Translations under genes and position numbers: made by a program
In this document: positions 24,286 to 63,650 of the stretch, one piece after another
Layout: the number at the start of each line of letters is the position of its first letter
Position numbering within the stretch: the first letter of the stretch is position 1
DNA from: Owenia fusiformis
Taxonomy: Eukaryota; Annelida; Polychaeta; Sabellida; Oweniidae
Direction: 5' to 3'
DNA length: 64,000 nucleotides
Assembly (NCBI GenBank): GCA_903813345.2
Contig: CAIIXF020000006.1
Location: 36,368,436-36,432,435 of the forward strand
The notes under the pieces: model-generated
What the model was told of the DNA's origin: nothing
What the model saw: only the letters and a program-made list of their open reading frames with translations
Databases searched by the model: none

Positions 24286-24325
24286 TTTCTCTTAAGTAAG
24301 CATTTAATTGGTCCTGAAAAGGACT
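24286..24325 (-). promoter_or_regulatory. Histone-type 3' stem-loop and purine element, copy 1
   Basis: Minus strand: AGTCCTTTTCAGGACC (24325-24310) then AAGAGAAATT. The first stem base is A instead of G, so one pair is lost; loop TTTC is intact. Confidence 0.8.
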
Positions 24326-24425
24326 GTTTGGTGTGTAGAACTCTGTAAGTAAAGTTGGCTTCTTTTCCAGACTGCATCATAGTTGAAGTTGAAGAAATTC
24401 TGAGCCCAAGACTGCTGCTTCACCC

Positions 24426-24803
24426 TTAAACCATATCAACATCAGAGTAGAAGGAATATTCAGATTCAACATCAGAATCATGAGACTCCATTTGGTCAAC
24501 TTTGCTCTTGAGCTCTTCAACTACAGCAGCCATCTCAGTTGCATAGTGGTAGAACATCATCTTCATGTTGCTGAGAGTGGATAGTTGTAGTCGCAGGGAG
24601 TAGCGCTGAGCCTCTCTCTGGTTCTGCTTGGCTCGCTGGTAGCGGATCTCCAAATTCTTGGCTCTGTCATCAATCAGTAGCAGTTGGTCACAGGCTCTGA
24701 GGAACTTTCTGTATGCAACGTCAAGCTGCTCAGTGGTTTGCTCCCGATCAGAGTATTGTTCTCTCTCTGGCACTTCAGATTCTTGCATAGAGTAGGAATC
24801 CAT
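24426..24803 (-). CDS. Small helical protein of the tandem family, copy 1 (125 aa)
   Basis: Single exon with no intron, ATG at 24803. Not recognised as a known family. Conserved core: EQLDVAYRKFLRACDQLLLI, then IRYQRAKQNQREAQRYSLRL, STLSNMKMMFYHYATEMAAV and VEELKSKVDQ. The spacing of hydrophobic residues suggests long amphipathic helices, possibly a coiled coil. The C-terminus is acidic and Ser/Tyr-rich (SDVESEYSFYSDVDMV). It lacks four residues near the N-terminus that its sisters have. The mRNA would end at a histone-type stem-loop (24310-24325). A 1.33-kb transposon (24825-26155) separates the coding region from the family promoter, so this copy may be weakly expressed or silent. It is not a histone. 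Confidence 0.82.
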   Translation of the reverse strand: MDSYSMQESEVPEREQYSDREQTTEQLDVAYRKFLRACDQLLLIDDRAKNLEIRYQRAKQNQREAQRYSLRLQLSTLSNMKMMFYHYATEMAAVVEELKSKVDQMESHDSDVESEYSFYSDVDMV

Positions 24804-24824
24804 TGTGGTTGTGTGTTTAGAGTT

Positions 24825-26155
24825 CCCAGCCTATCGTCAGGCGCAATATTGGTCAATATTTGAGGTCTACTTTTGGTCTACTCATGAGGCGTACTTCTGG
24901 TCTACTTTTGGTTTTTCTCTGTGTTAAATCCCCATAGTCAGGCGCGTTTCAAATATTTAAATTAAGCCAAAAGTAGACCAGAAGTAGACCTCATTTAATG
25001 ACCTCATCAGGTTTATCAGGTCTATATTTGAGGTCTAGACCTCATTTAAGCCTCAACTATCTGTAAATCAGGTCTATATTTGAGGTATACTTTTGGTCTA
25101 CGCCTTATTTGAGGTTCACTATTGGTTTTCAGGTCTACTTCTCTTCTGCTTTTGGTGTACACCTTACGTTAAGGCACATTTCAATTATGGAAATTAGGCC
25201 TGAAGGTCTACTTTTGGTCTAGACCTCATTTCAGGTACAAGCCTCATATACCTGTAAGTAAGGTCAGGTCATGTTTTGTTGTTTCAAAGTAGAAAAGTAC
25301 TTAGTACATATCAGTACCCTCCATAGTTGTTAAATAAATTGCATTTATTTTGAATTGCTGGGTTGTTTTCGAGGATTAACTTGTCTCATGGATAAGATAC
25401 AGATCTATGAACACATTAGAAGGATGAAGCAAAAATTACACAGTATTCTTATATAAATTATATGTAGGCTTCTAATATGATGTATTTTTGTTTCATCATT
25501 TAAATTTAACAATATTTCAATATTTTATTATTTTCAGACATCCTTCTTTAGGTTTCCCAGATTTTGATTATTTTTTTAAGTTCTGATAAAAACCATTAAT
25601 AGGGAGTTGAAAATACAGTTTACTGGTCTGTTAACCTAATATATTATAATCTGTCTCCTTCGTGATTCTGACAAAATACTACAGTAAGTGTGGCTTTTTC
25701 AGATTTATGTTTTCTAAGTTTTTAAAAAAATGTTTATCAGGTCTAGATTTGGTCATTTTATAAATGTTTAAGTTTTTAAGGCGCAGTTTTGGTCTATACG
25801 CCTGTCAGTGAGGTCTATTCTAAAATGTTCTTAGTTTATCAGGTCTAGATTTGGTCATTTTGAAAATTGTTCAAGTTTTTCAGGCGCACTTTTGGTCTAT
25901 ACGCCTTACAGTGAGGTCTATTCTAAAATCTTCTAAGTAAATGTGGTTTAGATTTGGTTTTTAAGGCGCAGTTTTGGTCTATACGCCTGAAAATAAGGTC
26001 TATAACTGGAATTAGTGTGAGTAAATGAGGCTAGGTTTTGGTCTAAGCCTTAAAAATACCTGTAAAAGAGGCATACTTTTAGTCTAGACCTGAAAGTAAG
26101 GCGCATTTAAGGTTAACTTTTGGTCTACGCCTCAAAAACCTGATGATAGGCTGGG
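24825..26155. mobile_element. DNA transposon-like insertion in the 5' leader of copy 1
   Basis: Terminal inverted repeats CCCAGCCTATCGTCAGG (left) and the complement of CCCAGCCTATCATCAGG (right). Sister genes show the uninterrupted site AGAGTTGTGATG, so the insert duplicated TT. The interior has no long reading frame and is filled with short repeats of TTTTGGTCTA, AGGTCTA and AAGGCGCA. Non-autonomous; superfamily undetermined. Confidence 0.85.
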
Positions 26156-26225
26156 TTGTGATGTGATTGCTAGGCAAGTCAGATCAGTAATGACTTCAAC
26201 TTGACTGCAAACAATATTTATATCA
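26156..26225 (-). promoter_or_regulatory. Displaced family promoter of copy 1
   Basis: Minus strand holds TATAAATA (26222-26215), then AAGTCATTACTGATCTGACT and TTGCCTAGCAATCACATCAC, as in every sister gene. Normally it lies about 75-100 bp from the ATG; here a transposon intervenes. Confidence 0.75.
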
Positions 26226-26780
26226 TTTTACAGCATACTAATCCCACTTCAAAAACATTGACATCAAGCAGTTTAAAACATCAAACCATTGTCAAACACT
26301 GACATCAGACAGTTTAAAACATCAAACAAACATTCCAAACAATGACATTAGACAGTTTAAAACATCAAACAATTATGTCAGACAATGACTTCAAACAAAC
26401 ATTTCAATCAATGTGATCAGGCAGTTTTAAACATCAATCAGTTCAAATATTGATACCAGGCTGTTTTAAAACTTCAAACACTGATATCAAACTTCAATCA
26501 AAACAATTCAAACATTGACATCAGACAGCTAAAAACCATAAACAAAAGATTTCAAACATGCATATCAAACAGTTAGACCACTAATCTCAGACAGTTTATA
26601 ACATCTAACACCAACCTTAAAAATTTGAGAAAAACTATTGTTGGCAGACATTTTAAAACATTGATATCAAATTGTTTTAACTTTTAAAAATTTAAAACTG
26701 CAAAGTAATAAAAAGTCTAAAAAGCTGTTTGAAAAAAAATCTCAAACAATGACCTTGACAATGAAGATCTGAAGAACAAA
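26226..26780 (-). repeat. Upstream array of ACATCAGACAGTTTAAAACA units, copy 1
   Basis: Imperfect 25-45-bp units, each with a GACATCA core (TGATGTC on the minus strand) and TTTAAAAC. The same array sits upstream of each minus-strand sister gene. Confidence 0.8.
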
Positions 26781-27642
26781 CTGAATTTATAGGTTGGAAC
26801 TACAGGATTATGGATGTCATATGTAAGCGTGAGGCCAACATTTTAAGAATATAAAACATTCAGACTCTAAAAACAAGAGAAACTGAAATATAGTATGACA
26901 CCCTGGATTATATTTCAAAATGTTCTTTACAAACCCAAAATTGATAATAAAACATTTTAAGAAGAGACAATTCAAAAACTTAATACTCTATTAAAACAAA
27001 ATTAAATGAATGTGAAACTCTTTTATCATTTTCATTTAAAGTACAACAAAACTTGATGAGTAAACGAATTTTAATCTTAAGTTGATATTGTTATTTCCAC
27101 TTTTTACATGTATGATACCTCTACCCTGTAGTCTGCAAGTAGAATTTGAGCAGACTTGGCTTGCTCTGTTGGAAGGAATAAATGATTGCAATAGACCGCA
27201 ATGAGTTTTTTTTGTTGAAAGCCAGATAACATGTCATTTGCACTCCTGGGCTTTTTGTTCTTTTTCTTAATACCTGGGGGGAAATCTCATTACCTATTGA
27301 TGCACTAGCACTGCGGGCGATTCAAAACACAGTACTTGTCTCTGGTTAACACTTTTTGTAATTAATTTCTCATAATTTATTTCCTAATACTTTTTGGGGT
27401 TTTCCCAATTCGGCCAATAAATATCCTTACTTCTTTATTGCAGTTTATGATGAAATTTGTTCATCAATCTCTATATTTATTTAATAATCAGTAAAGCCTG
27501 AACTTGGAAAGGGGTGTACATTTTAATATAAATATTTACATTCTGTGCAGAAAACAGGTCAACAAAGAGGATTTTTGATGATCAACTATTCTTCAGAAAT
27601 ACACACAATCAAACATACATTACAATTATATTCATAACTTAA
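26781..27642. other. Spacer between array 1 and gene copy 2, no gene seen
   Basis: AT-rich. Parts near 27050-27500 resemble the spacers at 31080-31340 and 32850-33090 (the TTACATGTATGATACCTCTACC region), so it belongs to the duplicated cluster unit. Confidence 0.5.
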
Positions 27643-27715
27643 TTTCTCTTTTGTAAGGATTTGGGGGTCCTGAAAAGGACCATTTAGCAAGGATTTGAGG
27701 GTCCTGAAAAGGACC
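27643..27715 (-). promoter_or_regulatory. Double histone-type 3' stem-loop with purine element, copy 2
   Basis: Two perfect GGTCCTTTTCAGGACC stem-loops on the minus strand (27715-27700 and 27681-27666), 34 bp apart through a local duplication, then AAAAGAGAAATT. The second loop has the standard spacing to the purine element. Confidence 0.88.
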
Positions 27716-27806
27716 ATTTAGTATGTACAGCTCTGAAAGGAAGTTGGCTTCTTCTGACTGTCTCACAGATGAAATGGTAGAAACCCTGAACCCGAAAACT
27801 GGAGTC

Positions 27807-28199
27807 TCAACTTTGAACCATATCATCATCAGAGTAGAAACAATATTCAGATTCAACATCAGAATCACGAGACTCCATTTGGTCAACTTTGCTCTTGAGC
27901 TCTTCAACTACAGCAGCCATCTCAGTTGCATAGTGGTAGAACATCATCTTCATGTTACTGAGAGTGGATAGTTGTAGTCGCAGGGAGTAGCGATGAGCCT
28001 CACTCTGTTTCTGCTTGGCTCGCTGGTAGCGAATCTCCAAATTCTTGGCTCTGTCATCAATCAGTAGCAGTTGGTCACAGGCTCTGAGGAACTTTCTGTA
28101 TGCAACGTCAAGCTGCTCAGTGGTTTGCTCCCAATCAGAGTGTTGTTCTCTCTCTGGCACTCCGTAGACTTCAGATTCTTGTATTGAGTAGGAATCCAT
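27807..28199 (-). CDS. Small helical protein of the tandem family, copy 2 (130 aa)
   Basis: Intronless, ATG at 28199. It has the full N-terminal form (MDSYSIQESEVYGVPEREQH), the conserved helical core with RACDQLLLIDDRAKNLEIRY and KMMFYHYATEMAAVVEELKS, and the acidic tail SDVESEYCFYSDDDMVQS. It belongs to the unit 27.6-29.65 kb that is a diverged duplicate of 33.6-35.5 kb. TATA and leader lie at 28200-28290 and two tandem stem-loops lie downstream. Function unknown. Confidence 0.85.
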   Translation of the reverse strand: MDSYSIQESEVYGVPEREQHSDWEQTTEQLDVAYRKFLRACDQLLLIDDRAKNLEIRYQRAKQKQSEAHRYSLRLQLSTLSNMKMMFYHYATEMAAVVEELKSKVDQMESRDSDVESEYCFYSDDDMVQS

Positions 28200-28290
28200 T
28201 TTGATTGTGTGTTTAGAGTTGTGATGTGATTGTTAGGCAAGTCAGATCAGTAATGACTTCAACTTGACTGCAAACAATATTTATATCACT
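28200..28290 (-). promoter_or_regulatory. Family promoter and leader, copy 2
   Basis: TATAAATA on the minus strand (28285-28278), about 30 bp before TCATTACT (likely start region), then the conserved leader GCCTAACAATCACATCACAA up to the ATG. Confidence 0.75.
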
Positions 28291-28750
28291 TTACAGCATA
28301 CTAATCCCACTTCAAAAACATTGACATCAAGCAGTTTAAAACATCAAACCATTGTCAAACACTGACATCAGACAGTTTAAAACATCAAACAAACATTCCA
28401 AACAATGGCATCAGACAGTTTAAAACATCAAACAATTATGTCAGACAATGACTTCAAACAAACATTTCAAGCAATGTGATCAGGTAGTTTTAAACATCAA
28501 TCATTTAAAATATTGATACCAGGCTGTTTTAAAACTTCAAACACTGACTTCAAACTTCAACCAAAACAATTCAAACATTGACATCAGACAGACAAAAACC
28601 ATAAACAAAAGATTTCAAACGTGCATATCAAACAGTTTGAACACTAATCCCAGACAGTTTATAACATTTAACACCAACCTTTAAAGTTTGAAAAAAACTT
28701 GTTGGCAGACATTTTAAAACATTGAATTCCAATTGTTTTAACTTTGAAAA
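28291..28750 (-). repeat. Upstream array of ACATCAGACAGTTTAAAACA units, copy 2
   Basis: Same repeat family as 26226-26780, closely matching unit for unit. Confidence 0.8.
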
Positions 28751-29066
28751 ATTTTAAACTGCAATGTAATAAAGAGTATAAAAAGCTGTTTGAGTCTTAT
28801 TCTCTAATATCTTCTGGCAATCTGGGTATCATTGTTACACTTATTCACTTATTTTCAAAAACAGAAATGACAGACTAACCAGTGAATTTATCATATTGAT
28901 AAAAAATATTTATTATTTAACAATTTATCAACATCTGAAACAAAATTGGAAATGTTTATGTTGTTTTTACCACTGTAATCACATTTATTGACCATCATAA
29001 ATCCAAACAATGTGGGAATTTCTTAGGAGCTATTAAAGCTATAATCACTATTCCTCTTCGTTGCAT

Positions 29067-29552
29067 GTGATTCATGGTGTTATTACCACTTTAAGTACAC
29101 CCATCAAGCATCATATGATTTATTGTGTTATTACCACTTTAAGTAAACCCATCAAGCATCATATGATTTATGATGTTATCACCACTTTAAGTACACCCAT
29201 CAAGCATCATATGATTTATTGTGTTATTAACACTTTAAGTAGACCCATGAAGCATCATATGATCTATGGTGTTATTACCACTTTAAGTACAACCATCAAG
29301 CATCATATGATTTATTGTGTTATTAACACTTTAAGTAGACCCATGAAGCATCATATGATTTATGGTGTTATTACCACTTTAAGTACATCCATCAAGCATT
29401 ATATGATTTATGGTGTTATGACCACTTTAAGTACATCCATCGAGCATTATATGATTTATTGTGTTATTACCACTTTAAGTACATCCTTCAAGCATTATAT
29501 GATTTATTGTGTTATTACCACTTTAAGTACACCCATCAACCATCATACATTC
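29067..29552. repeat. 48-bp minisatellite, about ten units
   Basis: Units contain GGTGTTATTACCACTTTAAG and CACCCATCAAGCATCATATG. As 48 is divisible by three, a 196-aa open frame runs through it, but it is only a repeat. The paralogous array is at 35066-35410. Confidence 0.92.
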
Positions 29553-29645
29553 TTGATGCAGGTGTGTCACTGTATCCAAACTAGAATCACTATTTTTTCT
29601 ATGTCTTACACGGTTACCAAATCTTGGAATACCACAGATTGGACC
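29553..29645 (-). pseudogene. Truncated 3' fragment of the acidic/Cys-rich gene
   Basis: Encodes CGIPRFGNRVRHRKNSDSSL, matching the C-terminus of the protein at 35398-36261, then loses frame through a small deletion. Nothing of the upstream coding region remains. It marks the end of a segmental duplication. Confidence 0.8.
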
Positions 29646-30160
29646 AGCTAAAAGCATTTGGATTAGGAGGTGTTTACATTTCAAACTTTTTGCATAAGCA
29701 GGATTCAGAATTTTGAAGAAATGTGAACATATCATCAATAAATATTTATAGATCCAGTTTAATGGCATGAAGTATTGAAAGAGCGATTTTGTAAGAAACA
29801 TGCTGTTTTGTGTAAAGTGTTCAGATTAGTGAGTTTATTTTTCAAATAAGACTGTACACTGTTCAAATTGAAGGTGATCACAAGTTTTTTTAACATGGAA
29901 GTCAATTGGTAGAAATAATGAGAGCAAAAAAGTGTTCAGATTGGGAGGTATTCAGATTTACCAGGTGTTCAGATATACAGGTTTAACTGTATTTACTAAT
30001 CGATAGAGCCTCTTTAACTTGGAAAGAAGAGTACACTGTAGTATAAAATATTTATTATGTGTGCAGAAAATTGAGATCAACGAAGAGGATATTTTACCCT
30101 CAACCATTCTTCACAAATACACACAATCAAACATGCATTAAAATTGTATTCAAAACTGAA
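29646..30160. repeat. First part of the tandem cluster unit, with Tigger-like repeat
   Basis: Contains AGCATTTGGATTAGGAGGTG and ends near 29996 with CAGGTTTAACTGTA. The same block recurs at about 31340-31705 and 33095-33440, showing cluster units of about 1.74 kb. Confidence 0.7.
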
Positions 30161-30199
30161 TTTCTCTTTAGTAAGGATTTGGGGATCCTGAAAAGGACC
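30161..30199 (-). promoter_or_regulatory. Histone-type 3' stem-loop and purine element, copy 3
   Basis: Minus strand GGTCCTTTTCAGGATC (30199-30184) followed by AAAGAGAAATT. One 3' stem base is changed (C to T), leaving a G-T pair; the loop is intact. Confidence 0.85.
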
Positions 30200-30291
30200 G
30201 TTTAGTGTGTAGAAGTTAAGTTTGCTTCTTATCCAGCCTGCATCATGGATGAAGTTGAAGAAATCCAGAACGGAAGACTGCTGCTTCACCT

Positions 30292-30678
30292 TCAAACCAT
30301 ATCATCATCAGAGTAGAAGGAATATTCAGATTCAGCATCAGAGTCCTGAGACTCCATTTGGTCAACTTTGCTCTTGAGTTCCTCAACTACAGCAGCCATC
30401 TCAGTTGCATAGTGGTAGAACATCATCTTCATGTTGCTGAGAGTAGATAGTTGTAGTCGCAGAGAGTAGCGCTGAGCCTCTCTTTGGTTCTGCTTTGCTC
30501 GCTGGTAGCGGATCTCCAAATTCTTAGCTCTGTCATCAATCAGCAGCAGTTGGTCACAGGCCCTGAGGAACTTTCTGTATGCAACATCAAGCTGCTCAGT
30601 GGTTTGCTCCCGATCAGAGTGTTGTTCTCTCTCTGGCACTCCATAGGCTTGCGATTCTTGCATTGAGTAGGAATCCAT
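30292..30678 (-). CDS. Small helical protein of the tandem family, copy 3 (128 aa)
   Basis: Intronless, ATG at 30678. Same architecture as its sisters: polar N-terminus (MDSYSMQESQAYGVPEREQH), helical core with EQLDVAYRKFLRACDQLLLI, KQNQREAQRYSLRLQLSTLS and ATEMAAVVEELKSKVDQ, and acidic tail SDAESEYSFYSDDDMV. It lies in the first of three direct tandem units spaced about 1735 bp (copies 3, 4 and 5). Frame and length are intact, so it is probably functional. Confidence 0.85.
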   Translation of the reverse strand: MDSYSMQESQAYGVPEREQHSDREQTTEQLDVAYRKFLRACDQLLLIDDRAKNLEIRYQRAKQNQREAQRYSLRLQLSTLSNMKMMFYHYATEMAAVVEELKSKVDQMESQDSDAESEYSFYSDDDMV

Positions 30679-30770
30679 TTTGATTGTGTGTTTAGAGTTG
30701 TGATGTGATTGCTAGGCAAGTCAGATCAGTAATGATTTCAACAAGACTGTAACCAGCATTTATATCATTT
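30679..30770 (-). promoter_or_regulatory. Family promoter and leader, copy 3
   Basis: TATAAATG on the minus strand (30764-30757), then AATCATTACTGATCTGACTT and the conserved leader. Confidence 0.7.
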
Positions 30771-30779
30771 TACAGGAAA

Positions 30780-31030
30780 CTAATGCCACTTCAAAAAACA
30801 TTGACATCAGACAGTTTAAAACTTCAAACAAATATTTCAAAGTTGGACATCAGACAGTTTAAAACTTGAAACAGTTCAAACATTGACATCAGACAGTTTA
30901 AAACTTGAAACAGTTCAAACATTGACATCAGACAGTTTAAAACTTCAAACATTGACATCAGACTGTTTAAAACTTCAAAACAAAATAGTTGAAACACTGA
31001 ATACAAACAGTTGAAAATTTCAAAGAAACC
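30780..31030 (-). repeat. Upstream array of GACATCAGACAGTTTAAAAC units, copy 3
   Basis: About six units, more regular than in copies 1 and 2, several with AACTTGAAACAGTTCAAACA between the cores. Confidence 0.8.
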
Positions 31031-31892: not shown

Positions 31893-31931
31893 TTTCTCTT
31901 TAGTAAGGATTTGGGGGTCCTGAAAAGGACT
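31893..31931 (-). promoter_or_regulatory. Histone-type 3' stem-loop and purine element, copy 4
   Basis: Minus strand AGTCCTTTTCAGGACC (31931-31916), then AAAGAGAAATT 14 nt on. First stem base is A, as in copy 1. Confidence 0.82.
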
Positions 31932-32025: not shown

Positions 32026-32418
32026 TCACTCTTGAACTGTATCATCATCAGAGTAGAAGGAATATTCAGATTCAGCATCAGAGTCCTGAGACTCCATTTG
32101 GTCAACTTTGCTCTTGAGCTCTTCAACTACAGCAGCCATCTCAGTTGCATAGAGGTAGAACATCATCTTCATGTTGCTGAGAGTGGATAGTTGTAGTCGC
32201 ACGGAGTAGCGATGAGCCTCACTCTGTTTCTGCTTGGCTCGCTGGTAGCGAATCTCCAAATTCTTGGCTCTGTCATCAATCAGTAGCAGTTGGTCACAGG
32301 CTCTGAGGAACTTTCTGTATGCAACGTCAAGCTGCTCAGTGGTTTGCTCCCAATCAGAGTATTGTTCTCTCTCTGGCACTCCGTATACTTCAGATTCTTG
32401 TATTGAGTAGGAATCCAT
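32026..32418 (-). CDS. Small helical protein of the tandem family, copy 4 (130 aa)
   Basis: Intronless, ATG at 32418. Very close to copy 2 in its N-terminus (MDSYSIQESEVYGVPEREQY) and to copy 3 in its C-terminus (SDAESEYSFYSDDDTVQE), which looks like exchange between copies. Core helices are intact; YHYATEM is YLYATEM here. It sits in the second of three 1.74-kb tandem units. Confidence 0.85.
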   Translation of the reverse strand: MDSYSIQESEVYGVPEREQYSDWEQTTEQLDVAYRKFLRACDQLLLIDDRAKNLEIRYQRAKQKQSEAHRYSVRLQLSTLSNMKMMFYLYATEMAAVVEELKSKVDQMESQDSDAESEYSFYSDDDTVQE

Positions 32419-32510
32419 TGTGGTTGTGTGTTTAGAGTTGTGATGTGATTGTTAGGCAAGTCAGATCAGTAATGATTTCAACAAGACTGTAACCAGCATT
32501 TATATTATAT
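32419..32510 (-). promoter_or_regulatory. Family promoter and leader, copy 4
   Basis: TATAAATG on the minus strand (32504-32497) with a 5-bp TATAT expansion next to it, then the conserved leader. Confidence 0.7.
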
Positions 32511-32539: not shown

Positions 32540-32780
32540 AAAAAAACATTGACATCAGACAGTTTAAAACTTCAAACAAATATTTCAAACTTGGACATCA
32601 GACAGTTTAAAACTTGAAACAGTTCAAACATTGACATCAGACAGTTTAAAACTTGAAACAGTTCAAACATTGACATTAGACAGTTTAAAACTTCAAACAT
32701 TGACATCAGACTGTTTAAAACTTCAAACAAAATAGTTGAAACACTGAATTCAAACAGTTGAAAATTTCAAAGAAACCATT
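32540..32780 (-). repeat. Upstream array of GACATCAGACAGTTTAAAAC units, copy 4
   Basis: Nearly identical to the copy 3 array. Confidence 0.8.
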
Positions 32781-33637: not shown

Positions 33638-33676
33638 TTTCTCTTTAGAAAGGATTTGGGGGTCCTGAAAAGGACC
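33638..33676 (-). promoter_or_regulatory. Histone-type 3' stem-loop and purine element, copy 5
   Basis: Minus strand perfect GGTCCTTTTCAGGACC (33676-33661), preceded by GAAC and followed after 14 nt by AAAGAGAAATT. Confidence 0.9.
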
Positions 33677-33764: not shown

Positions 33765-34157
33765 TCAACCATAAACCATACCATCATCAGAGTAGAAAGA
33801 ATATTCAGATTCAACATCGGAATCATGAGACTCCAACTGGTCAACTTTGCTCTTGAGCTTTTCAACTACAGCAGCCATCTCAGTTGCATAGTGGTAGAAC
33901 ATCATCTTCATGTTGCTGAGAGTAGAAAGTTGTAGTCGCAGAGAGTAGCGATGAGCCTCACTCTGGTTCTGCTTGGCTCGCTGGTAGCGGATCTCCAAAT
34001 TCTTTGCTCTGTCATCAATCAGTAGCAGTTGGTCACAGGCCCTGAGGAACTTTCTGTATGCAACATCAAGCTGCTCAGTGGTTTGCTCCCGATCAGAGAA
34101 TTGTTCTCTCTCTGGCACTCCGTAGACTTCAACTTCTTGCATTGAGTAGGAATCCAT
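33765..34157 (-). CDS. Small helical protein of the tandem family, copy 5 (130 aa)
   Basis: Intronless, ATG at 34157. N-terminus MDSYSMQEVEVYGVPEREQF; the core is conserved except VVEKLKSKVDQL; acidic tail SDVESEYSFYSDDGMVYG. The 3' half of its unit matches copies 3 and 4; its 5' flank (array, spacer, 48-bp minisatellite, acidic/Cys-rich gene) instead matches the flank of copy 2. Reading frame is intact. Confidence 0.85.
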   Translation of the reverse strand: MDSYSMQEVEVYGVPEREQFSDREQTTEQLDVAYRKFLRACDQLLLIDDRAKNLEIRYQRAKQNQSEAHRYSLRLQLSTLSNMKMMFYHYATEMAAVVEKLKSKVDQLESHDSDVESEYSFYSDDGMVYG

Positions 34158-34250
34158 TGTGGTTGTGTGTTTAGAGTTGTGATGTGATTGTTAGGCAAGT
34201 CAGATCAGTAATGACTTCAACTAGACTGCAAACAATATTTATATCATTTT
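34158..34250 (-). promoter_or_regulatory. Family promoter and leader, copy 5
   Basis: TATAAATA on the minus strand (34243-34236), then TCATTACTGATCTGACTTGC and the leader to the ATG. Confidence 0.75.
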
Positions 34251-34259: not shown

Positions 34260-34720
34260 TAATCCCACTTCAAAAACATTGACATCAAGCAGTTTAAAAC
34301 ATCAAACCATTGTCAAACACTGACATCAGACAGTTTAAAACATCAAACAAACATTCCAAACAATGACATCAGACAGTTTAAAACATCAAACAAAAATTCC
34401 AAACAACGACATCAGACAGTTTAAAACATCAAACAATTATATCAGACAATGACTCCAAACAAACATTTCAAGCAATGTTAAGGCAGTTTTAAACATCAAT
34501 CAGTTCAAATATTGACACCAGGCTGTTTTAAAACTTCAAACATTGACATCAAACTTCAATCAAAACAATTCAAACATTGACATCAGACAGCTAAAAACCA
34601 TGAACAAAAGATTTCAAACATGCATATCAAACAGTTAGACCACTAATCTCAGACAGTTTATAACATCTTACATCAACCTTAAAAATTTGAGAAAAACTAT
34701 TGTTGGCAGACATTTTAAAA
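34260..34720 (-). repeat. Upstream array of ACATCAGACAGTTTAAAACA units, copy 5
   Basis: Same family as for copies 1 and 2, with one extra unit near 34355-34440. Confidence 0.8.
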
Positions 34721-35065: not shown

Positions 35066-35410
35066 AATTGCATGTGATTTATGGTGATTACCACTTTAAG
35101 TACACCCATCAAGCATCATATGATTTATTCTGTTATTATCACTTTAAGTAAACCCATCAAGCATCATATGATTTATGATGTTATCACCACTTTTAAGTAC
35201 ATCCATCAAACAGTGTATGATTTATGGTGTTATTACCACTTTAGGTACATCCATCAAGCTTAATATGATTTATAGTGTCATTACCACTTTAAGTACATCC
35301 ATCAAGCATAATATGATTTACAGTGTCATTACCACTTTAAGTACATCCATCAAGCATTATATGATTTATTGTGTTATTACCACTTTAAGTACACCCATCA
35401 AGCATCATAC
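35066..35410. repeat. 48-bp minisatellite, about seven units, at the 3' end of the acidic/Cys-rich gene
   Basis: Same unit as 29067-29552. The stop codon of the adjoining minus-strand gene lies at the array edge, and an AATAAA on the minus strand at 35370-35365 comes from the first unit after the stop. Confidence 0.9.
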
Positions 35411-36261
35411 ATTCTTGATGCAGGTGTGTCACCGTAACTATCCAAACTAGAATCACTATTTTTTCGATGTCTTACATGGTTACCAAATCTTGGAATACCA
35501 CAGATTGTTTCCCCTACACATGTGCCGTCCCATTGGTGGTCACTCACACAACACATGACGTCTCTCATCCACTTGATACAAATTGAACAAGGGAAGAAAC
35601 AACAGACCAATCCCCACATTCCCGCCAGGGTCAGCATGGTGCATGAGTTATCCTTATCCCAGGGGTAGTACCACCTTGGATCTGCTCCCATGCACCAGTA
35701 ATCGTAACATGCCCCCCTGTTGACTCCATCTCTATTATTAGCACAATCTCTATCCAGTTGATTTGACCCAGGTGGTTTAATATATTGATTTTGTTGAGCA
35801 TTTTGATTCAAATCATGTCTTTGGACAGTTTGGTATTCTTTCCCGATTTCAGGATTCAAAGACCTATCTTTTACAAATTGTTTGTTTACAACATCAGCTT
35901 TTTGTTGATCATTGTGCTCATCTTCATCGTCAAAATATTCAATGTCTGGCAGTGGAGGTTCCTCAGTAGATTCACCTTTGATAGTTTTGTCTTCACTTTT
36001 ACAAACTTCATTGTCAATGTCTTGAATTCTCTGAATCTCACTGACTTTCCTTGTATCATCATTGTCTTTAACCCCATGATTTGAGTCATCTGTTAGATCA
36101 CATATTTCATTCCCTTTATCAGGTAGGCCTGGAGCATTAATTCCATTTCCATGGTTGAACTTTGTCTCTTTGTCATCTTTTATATTTTTCTCAATGAAAT
36201 TTTGTCTTTCAATCAGATCTTCATCTGTGATTTCCTGTATATTATCTTTTGGATGATCCAT
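35398..36261 (-). CDS. Acidic protein with Trp/Cys-rich hydrophobic segment (287 aa), unknown family
   Basis: Open on the minus strand from ATG at 36261 (MDHPKDNIQEITDEDLIERQ) to a stop at 35398. The first about 170 residues are charged, Asp/Glu/Asn/Gln-rich and likely disordered. Then follows CYDYWCMGADPRWYYPWDKD and a Cys-rich hydrophobic stretch, CTMLTLAGMWGLVCCFFPCS, with ICIKWMRDVMCCVS, which could be membrane-associated or palmitoylated. The tail is basic/Ser-rich (RHRKNSDSSLD). Not recognised. An acceptor-like CCACCAG lies just upstream, so a 5' noncoding exon is possible. A truncated copy of the 3' end exists at 29553-29645. Confidence 0.65.
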   Translation of the reverse strand: MDHPKDNIQEITDEDLIERQNFIEKNIKDDKETKFNHGNGINAPGLPDKGNEICDLTDDSNHGVKDNDDTRKVSEIQRIQDIDNEVCKSEDKTIKGESTEEPPLPDIEYFDDEDEHNDQQKADVVNKQFVKDRSLNPEIGKEYQTVQRHDLNQNAQQNQYIKPPGSNQLDRDCANNRDGVNRGACYDYWCMGADPRWYYPWDKDNSCTMLTLAGMWGLVCCFFPCSICIKWMRDVMCCVSDHQWDGTCVGETICGIPRFGNHVRHRKNSDSSLDSYGDTPASRMYDA

Positions 36262-37249: not shown

Positions 37250-37340
37250 ATTAATATAAATATTTTTAGCAGTCTTGTTGAAGTCATTACTGAGCTGACT
37301 TGCCTAGCAATCACATCACAACTCTAAACACACAAACACA
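37250..37340 (+). promoter_or_regulatory. Family promoter and leader, copy 6
   Basis: TATAAATA at 37255-37262, then GAAGTCATTACTGAGCTGAC and TTGCCTAGCAATCACATCAC, up to the ATG at 37341. Confidence 0.78.
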
Positions 37341-37742
37341 ATGGATTCCTATATGCAAGAATCTGATATCGATAGGGTTTCAGAAAAAGAACAGAAACTC
37401 AATCTTGAGCAAACCACTGAACAACTCCATGGTGCCTACGAAACATTTGTCAGGGCTTGTGATCAGGTACTACTGATTGATGACCAAGTCAAAATGGTAA
37501 AGTTACAATTCAGAAGAGCCAAACAGGACCAGAACTTGAGAGATGCTCATCGCTACTCACTGCGACTGCAACTATCCACTCTCAGCAACATGAAGATGAT
37601 GTTCTACCACTATGCCACTGAGATGGCTGCTGTAGTTGAGGAGCTCAAGAGCAAAGTTGATCAGCTGGAGTCTCAGGATTCTGACGCTGAATCTGAATAT
37701 TCCTTCTATGCTGACCACCAGGATGAAGAAATGCAACAGTGA
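37341..37742 (+). CDS. Small helical protein of the tandem family, copy 6 (133 aa)
   Basis: Intronless and inverted relative to copies 1-5. More diverged at the N-terminus (MDSYMQESDIDRVSEKEQKL) and in the first helix (EQLHGAYETFVRACDQVLLI, KMVKLQFRRAKQDQ). From AHRYSLRLQLSTLSNMKMMF through ATEMAAVVEELKSKVDQLES it matches the others, including at nucleotide level, which suggests conversion. Tail SDAESEYSFYADHQDEEMQQ. A perfect histone-type stem-loop begins 26 bp past the stop. Confidence 0.87.
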   Translation: MDSYMQESDIDRVSEKEQKLNLEQTTEQLHGAYETFVRACDQVLLIDDQVKMVKLQFRRAKQDQNLRDAHRYSLRLQLSTLSNMKMMFYHYATEMAAVVEELKSKVDQLESQDSDAESEYSFYADHQDEEMQQ

Positions 37743-37767: not shown

Positions 37768-37804
37768 GGTCCTTTTCAGGACCACAAATTTTAACAAAAG
37801 AGAT
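37768..37804 (+). promoter_or_regulatory. Histone-type 3' stem-loop and purine element, copy 6
   Basis: AAAAC, then GGTCCTTTTCAGGACC (37768-37783), then ACAAA and, further on, AAAAGAGA (37796-37803). This is the canonical histone order: flank, six-base stem, TTTC loop, ACAAA-like flank, purine-rich downstream element. Confidence 0.92.
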
Positions 37805-42845: not shown

Positions 42846-45800
42846 GCAATTTCTGCGCAAAGAGCTTTGAGGAGCAATTCCAAGAGAAGCATAAGCAACT
42901 AACATTAAAGTCATCATATCATAGCCACTGAATGAAAATACAAAGGTGGCCAACATGTAGCATGGTAATAGACAGGTGGCCAACATGGAGCATGGTAATT
43001 CACAGGTGACCAACATGGAGCATGGTAATTCACAGGTGACCAACATGGAGCATGGTAATTCAAAGGTGACCAACATGGAGCATGGTAATAAACAGGTGAC
43101 CAACATGGAGCATGGTAATTCACAGGTGACCAACATGGAGCATGGTAATTCACAGGTGACCAACATGAAGCATGGTAATACACAGGTGGCCAACATGGAG
43201 CATGGTAATTCACAGGTGACCAACATGGAGCATGGTTATAGACAGGTGGCCAACATGGAGCATGGTAATTCACAGGTGACCAACATGGAGCATGGTAATT
43301 CACAGGTGACCAACATGGAGCATGGTAATTCAAAGGTGACCAACATGGAGCATGGTAATAAACAGGTGACCAACATGGAGCATGGTAATTCACAGGTGAA
43401 CAACATGGAGCATGGTAATTCACAGGTGACCAACATGGAGCATGGTAATACACAGGTGGCCAACATGGAGCATGGTAATTCACAGGTGACCAACATGGAG
43501 CATGGTAATAGACAGGTGGCCAACATGGAGCATGGTAATTCACAGGTGACCAACATGGAGCATGGTAATTCACAGGTGACAAACATGGAGCATGGTAATT
43601 CAAAGGTGACCAACATGGAGCATGGTAATAAACAGGTGACCAACATGGAGCATGGTAGTTCACAGGTGACCAACATGGAGTATGGTAATTCACAGGTGAC
43701 CAAAATGGAGCATGGTAATTCACAGGTGACCAACATGGAGCATGGTAATACACAGATGGCCAACATGGAGCATCATAATAGACACATGTCCAACAAGGAG
43801 CGTAGTCATACACAGGTGGCCAACATGGAGCATGGTAATACACAGGTGGCCAACATGGAGCATTGTAATAGACACATGTCCAACAAGGAGTATGGTGATA
43901 CACAGGTGGCCAACATGGAGCATAGTAATAAACAGGTGACCAACATGGAGCATGGTAATTCACAGGTGACAAACATGGAGCATGGTAATTCACAGGTGAC
44001 CAACATGGAGCATGGTAATATACAGGTGGCCAACATGGAGCATGGTAATAGACAGGTGGCCAACATGGAGCACTATAATAGACACATGTCCAACAAGGAG
44101 CATGGTAATAGACAGGTGGCCAACATGGAGCGTGGACTGCCCAAAGCAAGGATAATATTGACCAGATGTGACCAAGTGAGAGGTTAGTTTGTATATTTTC
44201 ATCATTCTAAAATAAGTCTACTGCAAAAACTGCCGTTTTCCAAAAAAATCTCATGCAAAACTCCTTTTTTTCAAAAATCTCACGCAAAAACTATCATTTT
44301 TTCAAAACTCTACAGCAAAAACTACCATTTTTTATAACATTTACAGCAAAAACTTTTTTTGAATTTAAAAAAAAAGATTTCTGTAAAACTACCGTTTTAT
44401 TTCAAATCTATGGTTAAAACTCCATTGTTTTAAAACTCTGCCGAAAAAAACTGCCATTTTTCAAAATCTTGACAATTTCTGACAATTTTTACTATTGTTG
44501 TGTTAATTGTTTTTCTTACTTACTTACTTTCAGGGATTGTTGGGAAAAGGTTAGAGGCATGCATTGAAGAAAAGAAAAAAGAGAAGATCAAATCGAAAAA
44601 CAAACGTAACGTAGTAAATGGGATCCCGATCGCAATCCCAACAGAATCCTCTTCCAAGGTAAACTCTTCTCCGGAGTTGGAATTTGTAAGAAAGTCATCT
44701 TTAAATAATGTAAACATTTGTATACTTGAACTCATAAAACAGGAAGATAATGATGGATCTACTGATATGGTAAAGGCTGATGTCAACCAGGACAATGTTC
44801 TTGATAGTAATCAACAGTCACCAACAATATATGAAAACAGAAAAACAAACAAGGCTTTAACCAAACCAACAAAGAACATGAGAGGTAGAAAGAACAAGGT
44901 CAACATCATTAGATGTGATGTTTGTTCAAAAGAATCAGGAAGCAAATCAAAACTTGTAAGACATATGAGAACTCATACTGGTGAGAAAACATTTAAATGT
45001 GATATCTGCTTGAAAGTGTTCTCAGTTAAGTCATCTCTTACTACACACAAACACATACACACTGGTGAGAGACCATATAAATGTGATGTCTGCTCTAAGG
45101 CATTTTCACGAAGGAGTCTTCTTGTGAAACACAATCTCATACACACAGATGAAAGACCATATAAATACGATGTCTGCTCTGAAGCATTTTCAGAAAATTC
45201 ATCTCTAACTAAACACAAACTTATACACACAAGTGAACGCCCATATAAATGTGAAATCTGCATGAAATCATTTTTAAAAAAATCCTCTCTAACTCAACAC
45301 AATCGCATACACACAGGTGAAAGACCACATAAATGTGATGTTTGTTCGAAAACATTTTCACGAAGGAGTGATCTTGTTACACACAAACGGATACACACAG
45401 GTGAAAGACCATATAAATGTGATGTCTGCATGAGATCATTTTCACAAAACTCATCTCTAACTCAACACAATCTCATACACACTGGTGAAAGACCACATAA
45501 ATGTGAAATCTGCATGAAATCATTTTTAGAAAACTCCTCTCTAACTCTACACAATCGAATACACACAGGTGAAAGACCACATAAATGTGATGTTTGTTCT
45601 AAGGCATTTTCACGAAGGAGTCATCTTGTGACACACAAACGGATACACACAGGTGAAAGACCATATAAATGTGATGTCTGCTCTAAGGCATTTTCACATA
45701 GGAGTCATCTTGTGAGACACAAACGGATACACACAGGTGAAAGACCATATAAATGTGATGTCTGCTCGAGTGCATTTCATGAAAAATCAGCTCTTGTGAA

Positions 45801-48989: not shown

Positions 48990-49290
48990 GATTTTTAGGA
49001 ACTCCAGCTTTATCACCATGGTTTGAAACTGTCCCATATTAAGGATCAAAGAATATATTTATGTTTTATGTTAGAAACTGTCCCATATTAAAGATCAAAT
49101 AATATATTTATGTTTAATGTTAGAAACTGTCCCATATTAAGGATCGAAGAACATATTTATGTTTAATGTTAGAAACTGTCCGTTATTAAGGATCAAAGAA
49201 TATACTGTATTTATGTTTAATGTTAGAAACTGTCCCATATTAAGGATCAAAGAATATATTTATGTTTTATGTTAGAAACTGTCTCATTAA
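48990..49290. repeat. Minisatellite TTAGAAACTGTCCCATATTA, about five units
   Basis: Units of about 55-60 bp, also containing AAGGATCAAAGAATATATTT. Related arrays lie at 62520-62930 and stray units near 58265, 60200 and 60690. Confidence 0.85.
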
Positions 49291-49399
49291 AGGATTAAAG
49301 CTTATGATTAATTTTAAGCTTCAGCTTGGAATCTTTAAACTGTGTGATATCAAAATCCACTTGAAGATCTGAAAGCAAATTGGCTTCCCTAAGCGAAAA

Positions 49400-49491: not shown

Positions 49492-49755
49492 ATGGATTCC
49501 TCAGCGATGATAAAATCTGATGTCTGCAGAGTGGCAGAAGAAACACACCACATTGATCTGGATCAAGTGGCTGAACAACTCGATGTTGCATACAGAAAGT
49601 TTATAAGAGCTAAGAAGAACCACAAAGAGGCACATCTCTACTCTCTGCATCTACAGCTAAATATACTGAATAACATAAAGATGATGTACTACCACTATGC
49701 AACTGAGATGGCTGCTGTAGTAGAGGAGCTCAAGAGCAAAGTTGAACAGATATAG
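49492..49755 (+). CDS. Small helical protein family, copy 7 (87 aa, internally deleted)
   Basis: Intronless. Compared with copy 8 it lacks 63 bases (21 codons, CDQVLLIDDKVKMVEIRY and following) after KFIRA, leaving the frame intact. The rest (AHLYSLHLQLNILNNIKMMY, ATEMAAVVEELKSKVEQI) is nearly identical to copy 8. Like copy 8 it stops at TAG where copies 1-6 continue into the acidic tail. Loss of half the first conserved helix makes function doubtful. Its 3' stem-loop is also degraded. Confidence 0.75.
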   Translation: MDSSAMIKSDVCRVAEETHHIDLDQVAEQLDVAYRKFIRAKKNHKEAHLYSLHLQLNILNNIKMMYYHYATEMAAVVEELKSKVEQI

Positions 49756-49906: not shown

Positions 49907-49947
49907 AGTCCCTTTAAGGACCATCAAATTCTTCACAAAAGAGAAAT
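49907..49947 (+). promoter_or_regulatory. Degraded histone-type 3' signal, copy 7
   Basis: AGTCCCTTTAAGGACC at 49907-49922 followed by ACAAAAGAGAAATT. Changes in the outer and inner stem pairs leave about four pairs and a six-base loop; the purine element is intact. Confidence 0.6.
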
Positions 49948-57540: not shown

Positions 57541-58150
<610 letters not shown>

Positions 58151-60002: not shown

Positions 60003-61545
60003 TCAGTATTAAAAAATATTTAGAAAAGTGTATAAACTATATTATTTCCTCTTGAAACGTATACACAAAGTTGTTTAGATGTTGATCTTTATTACATGTA
60101 TCTGAAAGTTTCGTGTAATTATATTAGAAAATAGCAAAGTAAGAGCAAGGCGTCCAAGACCTTTGCATCACCCCTCATATATGTATGTTTTGTTTAATAA
60201 CTGTCTCATATTTAAGATGAAAGAATATATTTATGTTTAATGTTAGAACTCGTCTGATATTGTATGATATTAAAGATCAAAGAATAATCTTTATGTTTGA
60301 ATTTTGTCGTTTAGGGTGCAAAAATGTTCGAAATTTTTTAAAACTAAATTTTTAAAATGCTTTTTTTCCCAGAGTCACTTTTGTGCATGGATGACTTCAT
60401 TTCTCTCTTATTTAGCAACCAATTTTCTTCATCTTTTTTGAAATAAATTTCATGTATCACATTTTGATAACATTGGGTAAGGCTACAATATATACCAAAT
60501 TTGGGCCTTTAAGTATAATGTATTATATGGAAATAACATTTTTTGTATAAACTGTATTGTATAATGATATCCTATAGTAGTGTTGAGTTAAGTGTAGTGT
60601 AGTGTAGTTATATATATTTTGTAATGAATAATACATTAGGTCATATCTAAATAGTCAATAAAAGATATATTTAGGATCAAAGAATATATTTAATATTATG
60701 TTGATGTTAATAACTTAGTCCACTACTAAAGATCAAAGAATATATTAAAGCTGTGCTAAACCAATTTCAGAATCTCTTGTTATATTGTATTTAGCATCAT
60801 GATAAACCATGACATCTCATATCTTCTCAGCCCTGAGATGCCATGATTAAATGAGCTTGATTTGGCGATCCGGGAGAGCCCAAAATTGAATTTTTTTGAG
60901 ATCTTTCATCCCAGCTCATATTTCATCTAATTGGGGTCATAAAGCTTGTGTTACTGTGCCTGTTGTAATATCTGCTGTTAAATACAATACCTATTATGTA
61001 ATGTATTGACATTAAGTTGATGATTACATGATAACAATCACACTTATTGACAGTTATAACTCTACCCATCTGATGTGCTCAGATCACAGAATATGCCTCA
61101 TAATATCAGGGCATGTTTCAGATGAAACAGAAAGATGCTATGAGTATCAGAATGTGTATTTAGCACAAATAACATCCCTTCTGTTCTTTTGACTACAAAG
61201 CTTGTGATATTTCCCCACACAACATGATTTATCAAGATAAGACTGTCAACCTCTAAAATGTTGCTATTTTTGCGCCCTTTTTTAGGTCACCTGACCATGA
61301 CGTACCATGTGCCAAGTTATTCTGGCGCTAAATCGAAAAGCTGTTGCTGCGAACTACTACGAAGGCTGGGCCAATATATATTATATACATTTAGTTTCAA
61401 ATTTGCAAGCATTCCAATAGCCAAATTAATATCTTGAATTGATTGAACTTCACAATAAGAAATTCTTGTGGAAAGAGCACTGCAATATCATTTATTACAT
61501 ATACAAGCAATTGATTGAAATGCATTTGTAAAACCTATTTATCGA
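60003..61545. other. Intergenic, no gene seen
   Basis: AT-rich with scattered minisatellite units (AAAGATCAAAGAATATATTT) near 60200-60750. Confidence 0.4.
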
Positions 61546-62025
61546 TACTGTACTCCGGGTAATGTTCGCGTGCGATTTAATTTCGCTTTGTTCGCGAATG
61601 TAGTAAAATAGCGAACATTTATCATCGCGAAATTTGTCTTAAATCCCCGGGCCTTTTGATATGTTTCGTTCGGTGTGAAACGTTTCTTCCAGTGTTGTTG
61701 GGCGAAGGCCTCAAAACATTTTGAATTGCCTTATTAGGCCAACAAAGGCAAGAACTGTTGACGACAATGATATCCTACAAATTGAAGTTAAAAAGCCATT
61801 CAAGAATATTCAAATAAATGCCTTAAACGTGGGAAATACAAACATTATTCGGATTCTGAACAGGCTAAAATAGCCCACATTGATTCACGGTAATAGGAAA
61901 AAAAATCAACTTGTACAATCTTCGAAACGTCATCAACTCAAATCCGCGAAATTAAATAGCAGCGAAATTGAAATTTTGAAAAATCGCGAAATTTTATAGC
62001 GTCGAAATTTACCCGGAGTACAGTA
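61546..62025. mobile_element. MITE with CTGTACTCCGGGTAA ends, TA duplication
   Basis: Termini CTGTACTCCGGGTAA (61548) and TTACCCGGAGTACAG (ending 62023), each flanked by TA. Subterminal sequence is rich in TCGCGAA and GCGAAAT motifs. TA target sites point to Tc1/mariner or a similar group. Confidence 0.8.
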
Positions 62026-62519
62026 ACTGAAAATGTTAACCCAATAGTTATATCTTGGCCTAACAGCATTACATTCGGGTTACAAAGTTTTAATCCCCAA
62101 ACAGTGGCAATGTTTGCTGTTATATAACTTACATGGTTTCAATAGCGTTTCAGCCCGATTGATTCCACACTCAATTGCAAGTGATATTATATCTTTGCAA
62201 AATTTATGAGAATTAATCATGCAAAAATTGACTCAACATAAGAGCGAATGACTCCTTTTTGAGGGCCAGGGTTTCATTTTTATTTACAAAATCATATTTC
62301 GCAGCAAATTGTTTCAACCACACACGTCATGTCAGGTGACTTAAAATTTCTGCTCTGAAAAATGAAATCAGTTTTGCCGCGAAAACAGACATGTGCTGAC
62401 TTTATATCCCCGATATCATAATAAAATGAACTTTTGGAACTGTTGATGGTTCACCATCGTGAAGTGTGGCCTTCATACTGTGAGATAAGCATAAATGTAT
62501 CTAAATTGAGTAAAATGGT

Positions 62520-62930
62520 TTGAGTACAACTTTAATGTTTAATGTTATAAACTGTCTCATATTAAAGATCAAATATTACATTAATGTTTAATGTTATAAA
62601 CTGTCTCATATTAAAGATCAAAGAATATATTTATGCTTTATGTTAGAAGCTGTATCATATTAAAAACAAAGAAAATATTTATGTTTGATGTGAGGAACTG
62701 CATCATATTAAAAAAATCAAAGATCATATTTATGTTTAACATTAGAAACTGCATCAATGATCAAAGAATATATTAATGTTTGATATTAAAGAATATTTAT
62801 GTTTAATTCTAGAAACTGTCGTATGTTAAGGATCAAAAGATTCATTGACGTTAATATTAGAAACTGTCCCAAGTTCAGGATTATATTAGTTAAGATCATA
62901 TTTTTGTTTAATGTTAGAAACTGTCTCATT
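62520..62930. repeat. Minisatellite TTATAAACTGTCTCATATTA, about seven units
   Basis: Related to 48990-49290 and likewise directly upstream of a family gene, showing that 49.0-50.4 kb and 62.5-64.0 kb are segmental duplicates. Confidence 0.85.
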
Positions 62931-63039
62931 AAAGGATTAAAGCTTATGATTAATTTAAAGCTTAAGTGTGAAGTCTTTAAACTGTGTGATATCAAAATCC
63001 ACTTGAAGATCTGAAGACAAATTGGCTTCCCTAAGTGAA

Positions 63040-63132
63040 AGACTGATATAAATACTTGTTTCAGTCTAGTTGAAGTCATAACTGATCTGACTTGCCTAGC
63101 AATCACATCACAACTCTAAACACATTTATAAA
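63040..63132 (+). promoter_or_regulatory. Family promoter and leader, copy 8
   Basis: TATAAATA at 63047-63054, AAGTCATAACTGATCTGACT about 30 bp on, then the conserved leader to the ATG. Confidence 0.75.
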
Positions 63133-63459
63133 ATGGATTCCTCAGCGATGATAAAATCTGATGTCCGCAGAGCGGCAGAAGAAACACACCACATTGATCT
63201 GGATCAAGTGGCTGAACAACTGGATGTTGCATACAGAAAGTTCATAAGGGCATGCGATCAGGTACTCTTGATTGACGACAAAGTAAAGATGGTGGAAATA
63301 CGATACAACAGAGCTAAGAAGAACCACAAAGAGGCACACTTGTACTCTCTGCATCTACAGCTAAATATACTGAATAACACGAAGATGATGTACTACCACT
63401 ATGCAACTGAGATGGCTGCTGTAGTAGAGGAGCTCAAGAGCAAAGTTGAACAGATATAG
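63133..63459 (+). CDS. Small helical protein family, copy 8 (108 aa)
   Basis: Intronless. N-terminus MDSSAMIKSDVRRAAEETHH differs from copies 1-6, but the core is clear: EQLDVAYRKFIRACDQVLLI, DDKVKMVEIRYNRAKKNHKE, AHLYSLHLQLNILNNTKMMY and HYATEMAAVVEELKSKVEQI. It ends at TAG without the acidic tail. After the TAG the same frame stays open for about 50 more codons (IQGVDNSLHTDDEYQ and on) into the stem-loop. Probably functional; role unknown. Confidence 0.85.
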   Translation: MDSSAMIKSDVRRAAEETHHIDLDQVAEQLDVAYRKFIRACDQVLLIDDKVKMVEIRYNRAKKNHKEAHLYSLHLQLNILNNTKMMYYHYATEMAAVVEELKSKVEQI

Positions 63460-63610
63460 ATTCAAGGGGTTGACAATTCCCTCCATACTGATGATGAATA
63501 TCAAAAAATGCTTGCGTGTGGCATTTCTGGCTTCAACAATTTATCCAGCTTCTTTCATCTGAGTGATGTTTTACAAGACCGAGCACAATGCTTCGACAGT
63601 CATTGTGAAC

Positions 63611-63650
63611 GGTCCTTTTAAGGACCATCAAATTATTTACAAAAGAGAAA
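63611..63650 (+). promoter_or_regulatory. Histone-type 3' stem-loop and purine element, copy 8
   Basis: GAAC then GGTCCTTTTAAGGACC (63611-63626), six perfect pairs with a TTTA loop, then AAAAGAGAAATT after 14 nt. Confidence 0.87.

Follow-up and report, generated by a model that had tools for sequence, protein, structure and literature searches.

Can the 3' ending of replication-dependent histone mRNAs serve genes that encode no histone? The question is raised by a stretch of 64,000 nucleotides (nt) from the annelid Owenia fusiformis (assembly GCA_903813345.2, contig CAIIXF020000006.1, positions 36,368,436 to 36,432,435), here called the window, which lies on contig C6 of the 498 Mb genome. 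Its list of open reading frames (ORFs) and a pattern match reveal eight copies of one gene family, each designated below by its position in kilobases, with a stem-loop and a purine element on their 3' side. We know of no use of this RNA ending in animals outside histone genes, for which it has been thought reserved. The signals described here make it very probable that the family uses the histone 3'-end pathway and yields non-polyadenylated mRNAs, probably when replication is active.

The 3' signal and its retention

A search of the window for GGTCCTTTTCAGGACC with up to three mismatches returned 10 matches, against a chance expectation of 0.32. They represent nine sites, since the one at 63.1 kb is counted on both strands; the 27.8 kb copy accounts for two tandem sites. 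All nine lie 3' of family genes, and none is found behind any other listed ORF of the window (Table 1). An earlier, sequence-only reading of the window had claimed eight complete histone-type 3' ends with a purine element about 14 nt downstream. The spacing holds, at 12–16 nt across the copies, and seven of the eight combine at least five of six stem pairs with the element (AAGAGA or AAAGAGA); the claim fails for the 49.5 kb copy, whose ORF carries a deletion and whose stem (AGTCCCTTTAAGGACC) has two mismatched pairs. Minor departures are seen at 24.4 and 32.0 kb, where the terminal A-C pair is mismatched, and at 30.3 kb, where the second pair is G-T. Only the 37.3 kb copy (one of eight) exceeds the 34-bit gathering cut-off of the Rfam model RF00032 (42.4 bits, E 3.5e-9). 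The 63.1 kb copy (33.5 bits) and the 27.8, 33.8, 30.3 and 32.0 kb copies (20.6–29.3 bits) fall below it, and those at 24.4 and 49.5 kb gave no match at E up to 1.

A protein-similarity search of the whole genome recovered 81 family loci, fragments included (84 rows, three pairs of which were merged), and the family is evidently larger still, with more distant members besides. We examined 77 of these loci, 69 fetched from the genome and the 8 of the window. The other four are fragments (C12:1467991, C3:19649019, C3:20053352 and C3:20048781), among which C3:20053352 has a stem-loop and purine site directly downstream and C3:19649019 (L136) a stem-loop that is present but damaged. An ORF of at least 100 amino acids (aa) occurs at 75 of the 77 loci. 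A stem-loop with at least five of six pairs is found at 74, a degenerate one at 49.5 kb, and none at two (L015 and L061), which also lack the purine element and any stem-loop within 2 kb. The purine element was recovered by regular expression at 81 of 89 loci, 13–15 nt from the stem end in 80 of the 81. Of the eight loci missed, five have variant elements recognized by eye (L051, L058, L059, L060, L072a), the 49.5 kb copy has the element and failed on its stem, and L015 and L061 make up the rest. Genome-wide, matches with at most one mismatch number 135, the core histones' own counted in, versus 3 in a reversed control; three of the 135 (L074, L075 and L076) were rejected as chance sites, having no purine element. 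In several family genes (L045–L047, L049, L050 and L052–L055) the purine element follows a series of two or three hairpins that resemble the stem-loop.

L015 (C6:24490399) and L061 (C1:29302159) are placed among stem-loop genes in the tree and have therefore likely lost the stem-loop, with the reservation that long branches and weak support leave the tree unsure. Both may have switched to polyadenylation. In L061, AATAAA or ATTAAA occurs about 170 bases past the stop codon.

Retention of the signal bears on whether it is a passive passenger, that is, whether an ancestral gene landed before a histone 3' end and duplication copied a signal with no present function. Near-identity inside clusters proves little here, because the copies within a cluster are recent duplicates, as such a passenger would have it. 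We profiled 22 diverged representatives, six of them found through the signal (L072b, L073, L081, L099, L104 and L112), for which signal presence is circular and flank divergence is not. Upstream flanks are at background identity (0.24–0.29). Identity rises to 0.53 in the ten bases preceding the stem, is 0.83 and 0.70 in the stem-loop, 0.49 in the spacer and 0.61 in the purine block, and drops to 0.36 immediately past it and to about 0.3 beyond (0.27–0.32 from 50 nt downstream). The earlier statement that both elements persist in copies with diverged flanks is thus borne out, and between clusters this argues against a passenger.

The stems also change in compensating pairs. Across 44 sequences, 98.1% of stem cells are paired (92.7 in shuffled sets), and 16 cells are doubly changed (T-A to C-G, G-C to A-T or T-A); neither figure, nor the covariation score, was reached in any of 500 shuffles. 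These changes point to a stem structure maintained by compensatory change, as far as two of the six pairs are concerned. Furthermore, two broken copies (49.5 kb and L136) have damaged stems. Early stop codons occur in several copies, and L006, L019, L025, L030 and L031 are among those that keep good stems despite them, so that decay of the ORF need not bring decay of the signal; this is what a passenger would predict. All told, we consider a passenger highly improbable.

Comparison with the histone genes of the species

The core histone genes form tandem arrays on C8 and C11 and a small group on C10, in a unit H4-H3-H2A-H2B in which only H2A lies on the opposite strand. The available text of PMC12153100 describes this unit, together with a cluster of 35 genes on chromosome 5, one of 29 on chromosome 8 and four genes on chromosome 7; matching C8, C11 and C10 to these chromosomes assumes alphabetical contig order and agrees with the contig sizes. 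Each core-histone end in the array loci L078–L080 consists of GGTCCTTCTCAGGACC followed by a purine element. Ten H1 genes have a GGCCCTTTTCAGGGCC stem with a TTTC loop, and GGCCCT stems are present in two variant H2A/H2B pairs and an H2A ending in SQEY. No stem-loop was found at an H3 exon, an H2A ending in SQEF or a degenerate H2B; this H3 gene probably contains introns, because the exon starts mid-gene. Two divergent H2A/H2B variant pairs outside the arrays (L125 and L126), with arginine-rich H2B tails and the stems GGCCCTTCTCAGGGCC and GGCCCTTTTTAGGGCC, are possibly germline variants.

Models built from either group find the other. The first, made from 12 core-histone ends only, was applied to the window and to 38 chosen loci. 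At E 0.084 or better it finds all eight window copies and 33 of the 38 loci (including L077, a histone-type end), failing at L015, L061 and the chance sites L074–L076. The second, made from 44 family ends only, finds 16 of 16 histone-type ends of L077–L080 at E <1e-10; its best matches in L074–L076 have E 0.026–0.36, and it finds none in L015 and L061. Of 20 chosen loci, RF00032 itself matches 18 at E up to 0.01 and again misses L015 and L061. It gives the core histones 32.4–34.9 bits and several family genes 36–40 bits, with L112 at 30.6, L104 at 27.8 and L063 at 27.7. Stem length, flanks and purine spacing are like those of histone mRNAs, as had been proposed, and the species' own core and H1 genes share the kind of stem, the spacing and the purine element.

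The family resembles replication-dependent histone mRNAs, the substrates of SLBP and the U7 small nuclear ribonucleoprotein (snRNP) described by RF00032, in its 6-bp stem, 4-nt loop, A-rich flanks and purine element about 14 nt downstream, and their genes in its TATA box, tandem arrays and apparent lack of introns, the last being read from an ORF that is uninterrupted between TATA box and stem-loop. It differs from them in its non-histone protein, its TTTC loop and promoters that lack the core-histone upstream element. The dispersed H1 genes share with most of the distant family members the GGCCCTTTTCAGGGCC stem, the TTTC loop and the purine element, and also occupy scattered loci; they differ in encoding lysine-rich H1 rather than predicted helical hairpins. 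Because H1 genes share this loop, the GGCCCT stem of most of the distant members and the dispersed arrangement, whereas the core arrays have TCTC, an H1-type histone gene is perhaps the source of the ending.

Of 80 loci, 67 have a TATA box between 200 and 50 nt ahead of the start codon, most often at -78 to -96, against 14.8 predicted by simple shuffles. The 5' untranslated region is short and well conserved within the main clade. The core-histone upstream element GTGGATTC occurs in none of the 80 family promoters. The family thus combines a histone-type 3' end with transcription control unlike that of the core arrays. By eye, GTGGATTC is absent from three H1 promoters as well.

Table 1. Family genes, TATA boxes and 3' signals in the window (distances of purine elements are from the stem-loop)
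Feature	Copy	Positions	Strand	Remark
Gene	24.4 kb	24426..24803	-	125 aa
Stem-loop	24.4 kb	24310..24325	-	AGTCCTTTTCAGGACC, 5/6 pairs
Purine element	24.4 kb	24288..24293	-	AAGAGA, 16 nt downstream
Gene	27.8 kb	27807..28199	-	130 aa
TATA box	27.8 kb	28278..28285	-	TATAAATA
Stem-loop, first of tandem pair	27.8 kb	27700..27715	-	perfect; own purine element none found
Stem-loop, second of tandem pair	27.8 kb	27666..27681	-	perfect
Purine element	27.8 kb	27647..27652	-	AAAAGA(GAAATT), 13 nt downstream
Gene	30.3 kb	30292..30678	-	128 aa; protein folded by prediction
TATA box	30.3 kb	30757..30764	-	TATAAATG
Stem-loop	30.3 kb	30184..30199	-	GGTCCTTTTCAGGATC, G-T second pair
Purine element	30.3 kb	30165..30170	-	TAAAGA(GAAATT), 13 nt downstream
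Gene	32.0 kb	32026..32418	-	130 aa
TATA box	32.0 kb	32497..32504	-	TATAAATG
Stem-loop	32.0 kb	31916..31931	-	AGTCCTTTTCAGGACC, 5/6 pairs
Purine element	32.0 kb	31897..31902	-	13 nt downstream
Gene	33.8 kb	33765..34157	-	130 aa
TATA box	33.8 kb	34236..34243	-	TATAAATA
Stem-loop	33.8 kb	33661..33676	-	perfect
Purine element	33.8 kb	33642..33647	-	13 nt downstream
Gene	37.3 kb	37341..37742	+	133 aa, divergent
TATA box	37.3 kb	37255..37262	+	TATAAATA
Stem-loop	37.3 kb	37768..37783	+	perfect, above RF00032 gathering score
Purine element	37.3 kb	37796..37801	+	AAAAGA(GATATT), 12 nt downstream
Decayed copy	49.5 kb	49492..49755	+	87 aa, internal deletion
Stem-loop, degenerate	49.5 kb	49907..49922	+	AGTCCCTTTAAGGACC, 4/6 pairs
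Purine element	49.5 kb	49937..49942	+	AAAAGA(GAAATT), 14 nt downstream
Gene	63.1 kb	63133..63459	+	108 aa, without acidic tail
Stem-loop	63.1 kb	63611..63626	+	GGTCCTTTTAAGGACC, 6/6 pairs
Purine element	63.1 kb	63641..63646	+	AAAAGA(GAAATT), 14 nt downstream

Short tandem arrays lie upstream of family genes in the window (28316-28460, 30796-30979, 32544-32729, 34274-34461, 26253-26397, 49021-49300 and 62535-62788) and are possible promoter arrays. Four of them have a 39–43 bp unit (AAACATTGACATCAGACAGTTTAAAAC-like) and start about 117–126 nt ahead of the ATG, and 49-bp units precede the 49.5 and 63.1 kb copies. Elsewhere in the window, a 30-bp minisatellite of 40 copies (42937-44135) forms an open frame of 400 aa (ORF 42985-44187) that adjoins C2H2 zinc-finger ORFs. 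Two 48-bp minisatellites of the same unit (29064-29547 and 35071-35409) stand beside a shared coding fragment, ICGIPRFGN.VRHRKNSDSSLD, found in the ORFs 29523-29801 and 35398-36261.

Encoded proteins and other bearers of the signal

The ratio of nonsynonymous to synonymous substitution rates is 0.07–0.30 in all 20 chosen gene pairs, and the family proteins are evidently under purifying selection. AlphaFold2, run with seven window sequences, predicts a two-helix hairpin, usually with an acidic tail (helices 16–63 and 67–119, of 48 and 53 residues; mean predicted local distance difference test score 80.9, predicted template modelling score 0.62), with the N-terminus and tail at low confidence. 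The median isoelectric point is 4.69, and values below 6 are found in 69 of 80 proteins, while distant members such as L068 are basic. The sequence-only description of acidic-tailed helical non-histone proteins thus fits the main clade and the hairpin model; it does not extend to the 63.1 kb copy, which has no tail, or to some distant branches.

One may ask whether these are divergent histones or members of a known family, such as tubulin cofactor A (TBCA), so that the genes would be of ordinary histone type. A likeness to TBCA (PF02970) exists below threshold in 6 of 26 diverse members (best E 6.4e-5), and five window proteins score 17–19.6 bits against a gathering cut-off of 30.3. The modelled pair of long helices is neither a histone fold nor an H1 winged helix, and no histone Pfam family appears among the matches listed. 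Nor does any Pfam family exceed its cut-off among the matches listed for the window proteins or for the first member of sequence set A5 (25 of 32 matches). A fold search of the PDB returned only generic helical hairpins and no match at E 0.001 or better. PspA/Vipp1, the arms of SMC proteins and the PI3K iSH2 domain are similar in overall shape, none at that threshold, and any long hairpin may score in this way. We regard a divergent histone or known family as extremely unlikely. In a PDB sequence search with A5, helix 1 matched the BAP31 coiled coil (E 1e-4). A suspected likeness to MID1IP1/Spot14 was dropped, as no such family is among the Pfam matches listed. Because the acidic tail accompanies a shared 3' end, this acidic helical protein might act in the handling of chromatin or histones, which we offer as a guess.

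Two further patterns run on the genome gave 140 sites (21 in control) and 56 sites (3 in control). At least 52 sites of stem-loop form lie beyond the loci already known, and the 41 examined fall into 40 loci: 10 H1 genes, 9 distant helical genes, 4 Cys/His-rich genes, 7 members of a repeated group, 6 copies of a repeat, here repeat A, and 4 without a convincing ORF. Two of the distant helical genes are truncated (L103 and L105), and in eight of the nine the stem lies at most 50 nt from the stop codon. Among the Cys/His-rich genes, L110 and L111 are intact, with a histone-type 3' end 22 nt past the stop codon; the proteins are RING- or AN1-like by eye, and Pfam scores stay below cut-off. L088 and L090 are apparently related to them and have undergone tandem rearrangement.

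The repeats invite the view that a mobile element spread the 3' ends through the genome, the family being one of its passengers. Repeat A (L082, L098, L106, extended as L130, L108, L109 and L117) has at least nine signal-bearing copies, which are spread over several chromosomes, reach 99% identity and hold as many as three stem-loops besides a purine element. The longest ORF of the 5.4 kb stretch L130 does not exceed 90 aa. Repeat A also contains a repeat of about 505 bases and higher copy number. The repeated group (L083, L084, L086, L089, L096, L097 and L118) also carries the signal, on mostly broken ORFs. These repeats share long flanks and are a minority of the bearers, whereas the family representatives share gene and signal only: flanks shared beyond these were found for repeat A and not seen in the 22 representatives, the identity profile being the only flank search. 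In addition, the 40 further loci include the 10 H1 genes and the 9 distant helical genes with their closely placed stems. The element, found 3' of 75 of 77 loci (one degenerate) in otherwise diverged sequence, is thus not simply a mobile repeat, although some repeats do carry it; spread by such a repeat is very unlikely to explain the family.

Proposed processing and biological meaning

The genome evidently contains an SLBP gene, with two matches to the RNA-binding domain PF15247 over cut-off (C5:14876994-14877083 and 14877537-14877641). In the pathway that we propose, SLBP would bind the 6-bp stem with its TTTC loop, and some 14 nt further downstream the purine element would base-pair, at AAAGAGAAATT, with U7 snRNP. 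Cleavage would then leave an mRNA that ends just past the stem-loop and has no poly(A) tail. Family mRNAs would be made and be stable alongside histone mRNAs, in S phase, oocytes or rapid cleavage divisions, and storage in eggs may be a further function of the stem-loop. From the known histone pathway and the likeness of the signals we infer cleavage without polyadenylation and a level that follows replication; the timing is proposed with the same reserve, and the protein's role with more. Short, apparently intronless tandem genes behind TATA boxes would suit a need for fast, high output.

Several observations weigh against this pathway. The family loop is TTTC, versus TCTC in the core-histone arrays, and GTGGATTC is missing from the family promoters. 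Two loci, L015 and L061, lack the signal altogether; some repeats bear it without an intact gene, and several early-stop copies keep a good stem. In the covariation test, which kinship among the sequences weakens, the double changes sit in just two of six stem pairs, and the counts of doubly changed pairs and of pair types are not above shuffles (275 and 274 of 500). For U7 small nuclear RNA, RF00066 found nothing, the controls for this model being silent too; a U7 complementarity pattern gave 34 sites versus 32 in control, and five candidate loci were unconvincing, though none of these searches had the power to show absence. Lastly, 28 of 81 loci have AATAAA or ATTAAA in the first 100 nt past the stem, so that read-through polyadenylation is possible. 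In favour of the pathway, poly(A) signals are scarce ahead of the stem, where 3 of 81 loci have one in the last 100 nt or so.

The downstream hexamers would fit dual-ended genes, processed at the stem-loop in cycling cells and mainly polyadenylated downstream. Precedents, as far as the available parts of the sources describe them, are the dual processing of H2A.X (PMC7807067) and polyadenylated H2B (PMC3661734); these resemble the family as stem-loop genes possibly using poly(A) signals and differ from it in being histones still. The sequence is AT-rich, so that hexamers are expected often, an argument that is qualitative and has no chance figure, and a mainly polyadenylated gene would have no need of the purine element that these loci retain. 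Dual endings are unlikely to be the main mode, and they do not fully exclude use of the histone pathway. At the level of sequence, the interpretation as histone-type ends is supported.

With the other bearers included, it is reasonably probable that the histone 3'-end pathway is a general outlet for nearly ninety non-histone, apparently intronless genes (helical-hairpin, Cys/His-rich and others), whose non-polyadenylated mRNAs in oocytes or cleavage embryos would escape poly(A)-based transcriptomes. Among the matches listed from open-licence PMC literature, judged by titles and abstract beginnings, none describes this ending for a non-histone animal gene, although such a paper may well exist elsewhere. 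The available part of a paper on Owenia cleavage (PMC12550047) has nothing on histone-type ends of non-histone genes. The machinery is known; the class of clients appears to be new.

If the reading is correct, more than 70 non-histone genes with a complete signal break the histone-only rule, and the histone 3'-end pathway is open to capture by other genes. As a natural experiment, the family would then reveal how the stem-loop by itself affects an mRNA during S phase and in eggs. RNA sequencing with poly(A) selection would miss part of the Owenia transcriptome, and the data suggest that Owenia fusiformis would possess a second class of mRNA without a poly(A) tail.

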